Shown here in pieces: positions 15,676 through 58,613 of a stretch of 64,000 bases of DNA. How positions within the stretch are numbered: the first letter of the stretch is position 1; each line of letters opens with the position of its first letter. The stretch is from positions 372,001-436,000 of the forward strand of contig JAIXUN010000003.1 in NCBI GenBank assembly GCA_027483535.1. The letters run 5' to 3'. The position numbers and the translations under genes are program-made. This stretch comes from a bacterium. GTDB lineage: Bacteria; Armatimonadota; Fimbriimonadia; Fimbriimonadales; Fimbriimonadaceae. A model generated the notes under the pieces. The model did not search any database, was not told the DNA's origin, and saw only the letters and a program-made list of their open reading frames with translations.

Positions 15676-15785
15676 GGCTTGGAGGTTACCGGAATGGGAG
15701 CGGTGGGAGATTTCCGGCAGAGCGCCCCGTTCTTTTTGCTCGAGCCGCCCATTGCACGCGGCAATCACTCCCCTCCAGATGAGCA

Positions 15786-16270
15786 AGGCCGTCCCGACTT
15801 ATCGGAAACGGGGTGGTACAAGGTGAGATCTCGCGGGTGGTTGAAATCCCGTCATTAAGATGTCTGGAGGGACCTCTGGACCTTCTGCTTAGCCAACCCG
15901 CAATAATTCCCCTCCCGGGAGGGGTGCCCCGGCAGGGGCGGGGTGGTCTCCGGGAGGATCTCTCGTCCAAGTACCGGTCCCTTCGGGAAGAGTTTTTGCA
16001 AATCGAAACCGGGCTGGGTGGTTCCGGTTGCCAAACGGTATTCGAGTCACCTTGTTCAATCAGTTTTTTCGCCCTTCGAAAGGAGTTGCGCCGTGTTCGC
16101 AATTTTCGACCACCCCGTCGCTTCGCGCCACCCCTCCCGGGAGGGGAATTTGGCATCCTTCCTTTCGACCAAGTTCAATAAAATAAGAGCGAAGATCCAA
16201 TGATTGAAGGTGCCACCGGACCCATATTCCGCTCCTTGGGAGGGGTGCCCGCAGGGCGGGTTGGTTCAGA
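15786..16270 (+). repeat. REP-like palindromic repeats upstream of the DUF559 gene
   Basis: This 480-bp gap has no convincing gene. It holds copies of a GC-rich palindrome, CCCCTCCCGGGAGGGG, with a flank GGGGTGGTCTCCGG: one at about 15903-15958, an inverted one at 16108-16151 and a degenerate one at 16225-16270 that runs into the start codon of the DUF559 gene. A stretch near 15820-15845 (GTGAGATCTCGCGGGTGGTTGAA) resembles the DUF559 start region (GTGAGATCACGCGGGAAGTTTGAA), as if it were an old copy of its 5' end. The same repeats recur in the 57.5-58.6 kb gap. Confidence 0.75.
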
Positions 16271-16669
16271 GTGAGATCACGCGGGAAGTTTGAAGCACTG
16301 CCTTATAACCCCGAGTTGCGCCATCGTGCCAAGGAACTTCGACGAGCCGGGATGCTTCACGAAGCCGTCGTCTGGAACCAACTTAAGCACGGAAGACTCA
16401 ATGGTTTGGACTTTGACCGACAGAAGATTATTGGCAACTACATCGTGGATTTCTTTTGTGCCGAGCGCGGGTTCGTTTTGGAAGTGGACGGTGCCTCTCA
16501 CGAAGACCGATATGAGTACGATGCGGAGCGAGACGCTTTTCTGACTGGACTCGGCTTGACGGTTGTCCGAATCTCCGTGAACTCGGTTTTGAACCACATA
16601 GAGGACGTCGTGGAATACTTGAAAAATCACCCATTGCTAACGGAAGAAACTCCCGAGGACCAAGCTTGA
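16271..16669 (+). CDS. DUF559 domain protein (Vsr/restriction endonuclease-like fold)
   Basis: The 132-aa product starts at a GTG inside the repeat element and reads KFEALPYNPELRHRAKELRRAGMLHEAVVWNQLKHGRLNGLDFDRQKIIGNYIVDFFCAERGFVLEVDG, the full DUF559 signature. The family is related to very-short-patch-repair endonucleases; the conserved Glu in the first helix, VDFF and the EVDG strand correspond to the PD-(D/E)XK-type catalytic core. These genes are found widely in bacteria, often beside short palindromic repeats, and their role is unproven. It overlaps the next gene by 4 bp (TTGA). The composition of the upstream DNA and the repeats suggest a mobile or repeat-associated unit. Confidence 0.85.
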   Translation: MRSRGKFEALPYNPELRHRAKELRRAGMLHEAVVWNQLKHGRLNGLDFDRQKIIGNYIVDFFCAERGFVLEVDGASHEDRYEYDAERDAFLTGLGLTVVRISVNSVLNHIEDVVEYLKNHPLLTEETPEDQA

Positions 16670-57342: not shown

Positions 57343-57668
57343 CAGTGGCTTCCCGTTGCGTTTGGTGCAACTCCCTTACACCTTACGAGGTTTGGTCTCG
57401 GGGTGGCACGTGGAATATGTCTTTGTCGTGAAACGCGTGGTCGGTATTCGTGATTCGTTTATGGGTGGTTTGTTGTCTCGGGTTTGAGGGCTCCAAAATT
57501 CCTCTCTTGGGCCTGTCTAGATTTATCGGGGCGCGGTGGTTAGGCTTGCGTTTTTGAACCCTCATCCGTCCCGGGGAGAGTGTGGTCCCGAGAATCGGGA
57601 CCGGGTGAGGGGTCCCGAATTCCCCTCCCTGGAGAGGAATTTGATCTTGGTCCCAGATACCATCTCCC

Positions 57669-57721
57669 AAAAGCGGCGGAGCCGCGACCATCATCGCAGC
57701 CCAGGGTTTCAACCCTGGGAA
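57669..57721 (+). repeat. Repeat R3, copy 1
   Basis: AAGCGGCGGAGCCGCGACCA, then TCATCGCAGCCCAGGGTTTC, ending AACCCTGGG. The second copy at 58378-58427 differs at a few bases. Downstream flanks (GGCGGAGCC.TGGCAA) also align, so a unit of about 130 bases is duplicated. Confidence 0.72.
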
Positions 57722-57852
57722 TGGGATGCAATGGTAATTCCAGAACGGCGGAGCCGTGGCAAGACAGTTTTTCCTCTTGTCGACGAGGTGCCCGGAGTAT
57801 CTGGTCGGTCCTCCGGACCTTCTCGGAGAGGAGTTGAAACATCTTCTGTCGG

Positions 57853-57903
57853 ACCCTCGCCCCTCTGGGGGAGAGGGTGGCCGAAGGCCGGGTGAGGGGT
57901 CCC
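57853..57903 (+). repeat. Repeat R2, copy 1
   Basis: A 50-base unit beginning CCCTCGCCCCTCTGGGGGAG and ending GGTGAGGGGTCC, repeated almost exactly at 58325-58373. A divergent inverted copy is at 58165-58219. Each unit has long self-complementary arms, as expected of a REP element. Confidence 0.75.
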
Positions 57904-58035
57904 ATATTCCCCTCTATGGAGGGGTGGCGCGAAGCGCCGGGGTGGTCTCCGGGATTGTGATCTTCGTTACGAGTGAGCCCGGATCAGATACGTGAACAAT
58001 TCGCTTGAAAAACGCGGGATGGCCTTCGATTCTGC

Positions 58036-58112
58036 CGACCACCCCGCCCCTGCCGGGGCACCCCTCCCGGGAGGGGAATTTGATCTCGGTCCCAGATACC
58101 ATCGCCCAATAG
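58036..58112 (+). repeat. Repeat R1, well-preserved copy
   Basis: GACCACCCCGCCCCTGCCGG, then the palindrome CCCCTCCCGGGAGGGG, then AATTTGATCTCGGTCCCAGA. Matched at 58546-58613 (nearly identical tail), at 57622-57668 (degenerate) and, without the tail, near 15909, 16108, 57905 and 58258. Confidence 0.75.
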
Positions 58113-58324
58113 CGGCTCCGCCGCTTTTCGTTTTGGCTCCCGATTCATCGGCGTCCTAGAGTTTCCGGACCCCTCACCCGCCCCTGCCGGGGCACCCTCT
58201 CCCCCGGAGGGGCGAGGGTTCTCATGGTCTACTTCTCCGTCACGTCACCCCGTCCTTTAAGGCCACCCCTCCCGGGAGGGGAATTGGGTGAGGACCTTTC
58301 GTCGCAAGTTGTCTGTATACGAAG

Positions 58325-58373
58325 CCCTCGCCCCTCTGGGGGAGAGGGTGGCCGAAGGCCGGGTGAGGGGTCC
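58325..58373 (+). repeat. Repeat R2, copy 2
   Basis: Nearly identical to 57855-57903. It is followed at once by an R3 copy (58378-58427). Confidence 0.75.
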
Positions 58374-58545
58374 GAGAAAGCGGCGGAGCCGCGACAATCA
58401 TCGCAGCTCAGGGTTTTAACCCTGGGTTTAGGAATCCGTCAAAAGCCGGAAGGGCGGAGCCCTGGCAATACGGATTTCCCTCTTGTAGAAAAGGTGTCCG
58501 GAGGACCGACCTGATACTCCCTCGTGGATGGTTATTCTTCCCGGA

Positions 58546-58613
58546 GACCACCCCGCTCCGATGGGGCACCCCTCCCGGGAGGGGAATTTGATCTCGGTCC
58601 CAGATACCATCTA
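58546..58613 (+). repeat. Repeat R1, second well-preserved copy
   Basis: GACCACCCCGCTCCGATGGGGCA, the palindrome CCCCTCCCGGGAGGGG and AATTTGATCTCGGTCCCAGA. About 60 bases match the copy at 58036, apart from the variable stem-loop. Confidence 0.75.

Follow-up and report, generated by a model that had tools for sequence, protein, structure and literature searches.

A DUF559 nuclease gene between inverted two-hairpin repeats: probable partner of the R1 palindrome in Armatimonadota and other phyla

The short palindromic repeat R1 of a Fimbriimonadaceae genome (Armatimonadota; 3.77 Mb) probably delimits a very small mobile element that carries only a DUF559 nuclease gene, with the nuclease acting on the R1 ends and serving gene-less R1 pairs in trans. 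The best reading is that DUF559 is the autonomous partner of R1, a relation like that of REP and RAYT but working with an unrelated, homing-endonuclease-like enzyme. Co-mobility of R1 and DUF559 is well supported; that the nuclease itself binds and cleaves R1 ends, and that the DUF559 element is autonomous, we infer. The evidence comprises the architecture of the elements, which is kept across phyla, the match between nuclease clade and repeat type, sharp-edged dispersed copies, polymorphic sites, and one element that retains the 3' end of the gene. A preliminary description of the 64,000-nucleotide stretch analysed here (the window) had likened the pair to REP/RAYT with a different enzyme family. 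This likeness holds, as R1 brackets one DUF559 clade across phyla far above background and the repeat type follows the clade.

The window gene (16271-16669, + strand; GTG start, 132 aa) encodes, as previously proposed, a DUF559 nuclease-like protein, which passes the PF04480 cut-off (E 2e-30, 105 bits against 20.6) and contains the conserved acidic/His core. It falls in the R1-associated 'DFDRQ' clade and is 63-64% identical to the R1-bracketed DUF559 proteins at C4:41.9 kb of the host genome and in two other Armatimonadota, G145 and G141, and 49% identical to that of a third, G095. The third upstream palindrome noted earlier lies at 16226-16265 (ATTCCGCTCCTTGGGAGGGGTGCCCGCAGGGCGGGTTGGT) and ends 5 bp ahead of the start codon. 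It is a decayed R1 half-site on the + strand, pointing into the gene, with hairpin 1, hairpin 2 and the tag GGGTTGGT, and it occupies the same position as the intact halves at locus L002 and in G145, G141 and G095. A putative vestige of the downstream half-site lies at 16624-16638 (- strand), with AATCACCCA for AACCACCCC, and codes for the conserved HP.L end of the protein; alignment of the C-terminal NHPxL motif of G145, G095 and G141 suggests that it is the trace of a 3' half. With its 5' half decayed and its 3' half only a trace, the window copy looks like a decayed version that is immobile by itself.

The faint second DUF559 5' end reported upstream of the gene proved to be real. A decayed R1 half-site (15770-15817) followed by a 37-bp remnant of the gene start spans 15770-15845 (+ strand). 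The remnant (15809-15845), which lies just inside the half-site in the same geometry as at the DUF559 gene, matches the gene start in ~29 of 38 columns, the top score anywhere in the window, and none of 5000 shuffles scored as well. Besides the window gene, the host genome contains one full DUF559 gene (C4:41910-42215) and one weak match.

R1 had been described as a single palindrome, a view that has to be revised. The 16-bp palindrome forms just the outer of two hairpins in a half-site of ~48 bp, and the halves face each other in pairs. Each terminal inverted repeat half consists of AATTCCCCTCCnnnGGAGGGGTG, a second hairpin of free sequence and then GGGGTGGT, the tag of the commonest class; in full, the layout is ATTCCCCTC nnn GAGGGGTG, the second hairpin, and GGGGTGGT. 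The second hairpin is almost free in sequence and nearly always self-complementary, with 35 different versions in the part of the host genome examined, a set chosen without any pairing requirement. The folding energy of R1 hairpins is by itself not exceptional (z -0.2 to -1.8). Within the window, CCCCTCCCGGGAGGGG matches exactly at 15909, 16131, 58061, 58266 and 58569. With up to 3 mismatches there are seven sites where 0.64 are expected, a number reached by none of 100 shuffles, which places the palindrome noted earlier far above chance, and the GGGGTGGTCTCCGG flank of the unit is indeed found again at 57.6-58.6 kb. Genome-wide, 143 half-sites match the pattern GGAGGGGTGN{5,18}GGGGTGGT, and the reversed control pattern has no match.

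The majority of R1 copies are found elsewhere than at DUF559, a distribution that non-autonomous copies should show. Two gene-less elements are found in the window. The first, 244 bp long and MITE-like (15906-16149), has inverted half-sites at 15906-15953 and ~16106-16149; the second, of 174 bp (57906-58079), is 85.8% identical to a copy at C4:126165, the alignment ending at ATTCCCC. A single half-site lies at 58538-58587 (- strand), another with the altered tag GGGGTGAC at 58241-58285 (- strand), and a degenerate hairpin 1, CCCCTCCCTGGAGAGG, at 57620-57640. Across ~450 kb of the host genome (386 kb of contigs C4 and C3, plus the window), 32 of 50 adjacent half-site pairs are convergent, mostly 140-180 bp apart, and form gene-less elements of ~160 bp. 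These dispersed elements occupy unrelated sites and are up to 86-87% identical, with similarity breaking off at the ATTCCCC ends. Target-site duplications were sought at 31 R1 pairs of the host genome and stayed at chance level for lengths of 1-10 bp. The remnant at 15809-15845 is the sole one of its kind, and no recognisable DUF559 fragment was found in the gene-less elements of the host genome. The two ends of a gene-less element are often unlike, one with GGGGTGGTCGGCA and the other with GGGGTGGTCTCCGG, suggesting distinct left and right ends. Half-site density is high in C3, C4 and the first 126 kb of C1; the other 2.46 Mb of C1 has nearly none among the matches listed. C4:66360-66910 is a 551-bp R1-ended element in which no DUF559 gene is recognisable.

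The complete form of the element is seen at the other DUF559 gene of the host, which is exactly bracketed by two inverted R1 halves (C4:41803-42326). The same exact bracketing occurs in four Armatimonadota genomes (the host, G145, G095 and G141). In these elements the start codon directly adjoins the 5' half, and the last residues of the protein (NHPxL...) are encoded in the 3' half, so that the gene and its R1 ends are fitted to each other. The elements are ~430-530 bp long, and their sole reading frame is DUF559, with no DDE transposase present. All three R1 halves in the 3.2-Mb genome of G145 adjoin a DUF559 gene. Gene-less R1 elements share their ends with the DUF559 elements, and one derivative, in G095, keeps the 3' end of the gene. 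It lies directly behind a DUF559 element, and over its inner 55 bp it agrees with the 3' end of a DUF559 gene at 42 of 55 positions (score 29, where 2000 shuffles reach at most 16), as would be expected if it arose by internal deletion. For annotators this carries a warning: in many DUF559 proteins the 'PPSPLRGEG'-like low-complexity ends arise where the frame reads through into the terminal repeats of the element itself.

The association extends well beyond Armatimonadota. Five R1-bracketed proteins used as queries retrieved 553 relatives, and the best 80 were analysed; these loci were picked by protein similarity and are related by descent, yet stand in non-orthologous places. Judged by their record titles, the best 80 cover at least 10 phyla, including Armatimonadota, Desulfobacterota, Alpha-, Beta- and Gammaproteobacteria, Cyanobacteria, Bacteroidota, Bacillota, Calditrichota, Spirochaetota, Cloacimonadota, Fibrobacterota and Chloroflexota. 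Inverted repeats in the 200-bp flanks exceed the 99th percentile of shifted controls from the same locus at 60 of the 80 loci (median score 43 vs 17), most of them being the R1 motif. About 20 of these 80 clade members have no clearly scoring flanking repeats.

Repeat type and nuclease clade were compared across 116 distinct DUF559 genes, counting repeats within 250 bp. R1 accompanies 56 of 66 DFDRQ genes, none of 36 genes of the FRRQ clade, and 14 of 949 background windows, and is thus not equally common around unrelated genes. A second palindrome, R2 (..GGAGAGGG..GGGTGAGG), shows the opposite distribution, with 0/66 DFDRQ genes against 15/36 FRRQ genes. Fisher tests of clade against repeat type give p = 9e-19 for R1 and 2e-8 for R2, values that overstate the independence of loci that are kin by descent. 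On the protein tree the R1/R2 label switches once, compared with a mean of 14.8 when labels are shuffled. The repeat type therefore switches together with the nuclease clade, and FRRQ is the sister clade of DFDRQ that never occurs with R1. The hairpin bases CCCCT[xy] and tag bases GGGGT[tt] are coupled in 43 of 43 loci (CC-GG, CT-GT, TC-AG, TT-AT). This was rejected as proof of coevolution, as the tree gives ~5 changes with one independent pair on well-supported branches, and is suggestive only. Likewise, the DUF559 copies within G085, G097 and G084 are just ~65-71% alike and were set aside as proof of recent jumps. Certain hairpin-2 sequences (GCGCGAAGCGC, CCCCGGCAGGGGC, CCGAGAATCGGG and GGCCGAAGGCC) are common to the R1 and R2 families in the window (57840-58400) and at many C4 loci, as if loops had been swapped between repeat families.

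It had been foreseen that related genomes with the repeats and no DUF559 gene would speak against a partnership, and such genomes partly exist. Three (G079, G144 and G027) carry R1 without an R1-clade DUF559, none being found even at E<=1, and two more (G139 and G140) carry R1 with DUF559 of other clades only. As REP/RAYT systems also have orphan repeats (PMC3733652), these five genomes weaken the partner idea and do not overturn it. Orphans are expected of derivatives that outlive their source.

The same orphans fit an alternative in which DUF559 is a passenger, captured in a palindromic element that is moved by another enzyme (RAYT/Y1 or some other transposase) and kept for an unrelated job. 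The multicopy persistence of R1 in genomes that lack the matching nuclease favours this, as does the ability of DUF559 relatives to act outside such elements, exemplified by the Caulobacter protein VsrA, which triggers a DNA-damage response in living cells of a methylase mutant (PMC12907096). We nevertheless regard it as unlikely. A Y1/RAYT gene (PF01797) is missing from the host (G000), G141, G144 and G079, and none of the six Y1 loci in G095 and G145 has R1. Nor would a passenger readily explain why repeat type and nuclease clade pair one to one across phyla. With no Y1/RAYT gene in the host and no R1 at the Y1 loci of two other R1 genomes, DUF559 is the likely enzyme acting on the R1 ends. 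Other repeat families in the window, AAGCGGCGGAGCCGCGAC and CCCAGGGTTTNAACCCTGGG (57680-57760 and 58380-58460), resemble RAYT-type REPs; despite them, no Y1 transposase gene was detected in the host genome at E<=0.001.

The predicted structure of the DUF559 protein (pLDDT 87) matches, in order, the solved DUF559 protein 3hrl, the EDxHD homing endonuclease I-Bth0305I (3r3p, E 5e-4) and Vsr. Residues E31, D60, E71, D73 and H77 are invariant in 35 sequences and, by analogy, may form an active site of the Vsr/EDxHD type.

Insertions into host genes provide a view of the sites that these elements occupy. The hsdR genes of Muricauda and Weeksella carry an in-frame R1-DUF559 element at an identical point, just ahead of the Walker A motif; the solved EcoR124I HsdR aligns on either side of the insertion, with only a short stretch between. 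For the R2 type, an element also lies in frame in ybeY, in a loop of the protein (DVLSF|GDIVIS) that varies within one genus. In G171 this loop holds 723 bp with DUF559 and R2-like ends, in G165 147 bp with palindromes only, and in G161 and G170 66-75 bp without a DUF559 gene or R2-like palindromes. Full, gene-less and empty versions of the site thus exist within a single genus. In G145 an element is found where terC ends, the terC frame now running to a stop within the ATGA that also provides the DUF559 start. The element is absent from this site in 11 relatives, at ~55-67% protein identity, and for R1 elements the comparisons yielded no empty site with exact edges at the strain level. Two further guides to empty sites were rejected. 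The GFO/IDH neighbour of the window locus has a single distant orthologue (46%), and at E. coli ycjD other strains carry a different operon after sapF, leaving the edges unreadable. YcjD itself belongs to DUF559; 3366 of 5426 E. coli genomes have it, and an R2-like repeat follows the gene (sapF-ycjD-fabI, L275/L280), which makes the locus a convenient laboratory model of the R2 type.

DUF559 also provides the nuclease domain of inteins that interrupt DNA methyltransferases immediately ahead of CGSGTT (G045, G063, G178, G056, G166 and G283), and these inteins bear palindrome-derived tracts as well (L079-L082, L086, L091). DUF559 elements recur in the restriction-modification genes hsdM, hsdR and the end of hsdS in several phyla (L077, L085, L089, L187, L192, L202, L210), which may reflect target preference or hitch-hiking in defence islands.

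In a second alternative, DUF559 is a selfish gene of the homing type: it cuts a chromosomal target in or next to host genes, and repair of the cut copies it in. The palindromes would then not be cleavage sites but hitch-hiking structures that shield ends, stop transcription or keep the reading frame open. The fold match to I-Bth0305I, the place of DUF559 as the nuclease of methylase inteins and the insertion at one hsdR site in two genera all point in this direction. Homing alone leaves unexplained the many gene-less R1 pairs at unrelated sites and the conservation of the end sequence across phyla, and we consider it improbable. That R1 is an ordinary intergenic REP or terminator palindrome accumulating near DUF559 in flexible intergenic regions or defence islands would suit the many copies away from DUF559, the clustering of R1 with other repeat families in the host and the elements in restriction-modification loci, but is very improbable, being already contradicted by the counts near DFDRQ genes and background windows and further by the inverted bracketing fitted to gene ends in unrelated genomes, the position of every G145 R1 at a DUF559 gene, and the in-frame insertions.

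If DUF559 is indeed the partner of R1, a nuclease with the Vsr/EDxHD homing-endonuclease fold would most likely recognise the two-hairpin end, made up of CCCCTCC..GGAGGGGTG and the GGGGTGGT tag, when the DNA is single-stranded or forms a cruciform, and would nick or cut it there. The break would then be used to copy the element to new places through strand transfer or break repair, leaving no target-site duplication. The simplest guess is a nick at the hairpin end followed by template-dependent repair. The ~160-bp gene-less pairs would be non-autonomous derivatives served in trans, like MITEs or REPINs. A hydrolytic nuclease fold is not known to have strand-transfer activity of its own, which counts against this explanation.

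DUF559 is a common family of unknown function, found in 136 of 291 Armatimonadota genomes, and no source is known for many of the palindromes dispersed in bacterial genomes. Its position between paired inverted repeats in at least 10 phyla suggests that it is the engine of widespread tiny mobile elements whose gene-less copies are the 'junk' palindromes. If the nuclease moves the palindromes, one enzyme family accounts for both, giving an answer to the spread of small palindromes that does not involve RAYTs and possibly a new chemistry of DNA mobility. The chances seem evenly balanced for the broader proposal that DUF559 nucleases mobilise cosmopolitan tiny hairpin-ended elements, each clade with its own palindrome family, and that a large part of the orphan GC-rich palindromes of bacterial genomes are their non-autonomous copies. 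Clade-dedicated families would then include R1, R2 and perhaps the transposase-less CGTC REPs. If true, this would be a DNA mobility system built on a Vsr-fold nuclease, unlike those of DDE, HUH, tyrosine or serine enzymes. No report joining DUF559/PF04480 with palindromic repeats was found in the literature covered, a search largely outside subscription papers and preprints.

Several known systems share features with the R1-DUF559 element. EDxHD and Vsr-fold homing endonucleases (I-Bth0305I) and the Vsr repair endonuclease resemble it in predicted fold and conserved acidic/His core, and DUF559 is the nuclease of inteins in Armatimonadota. Unlike homing endonucleases, the R1-DUF559 gene lies in no intron or intein, is bracketed by hairpin repeats and has dispersed gene-less derivatives. 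Rickettsia palindromic elements (RPE) also lie in frame in protein genes, and both they and the CGTC REPs lack a known dedicated transposase (PMC3733652, PMC10969869); RPEs differ in that they code for no enzyme and belong to other sequence families. With MITEs, R1 shares short inverted-repeat elements that carry no gene and occur in multiple dispersed, sharp-edged copies, but R1 pairs lack target-site duplications and their ends are conserved across phyla. For a Thiomargarita MITE, a parent of the PD-(D/E)XK_2 type (YhgA) was once suggested (PMC4853749). This proposal likewise invokes a PD-(D/E)XK-type parent, of family PF12784 there and PF04480 here. Close parallels exist with REP/RAYT systems (REPtrons, TIRtrons, REPINs and BIMEs). 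They too are built of short GC-rich palindromes with a conserved tag that form inverted doublets and occur in many copies without a gene, and their single-gene partner stands between repeats of the type scattered over the genome. In contrast to these, the partner of R1 is a DUF559 Vsr-fold nuclease rather than a Y1 HUH transposase, with PF01797 absent from the host, and its ends are longer two-hairpin units tagged with GGGGTGGT instead of GTAG. Differing in both enzyme family and tag, R1-DUF559 is not a member of the REPtrons.
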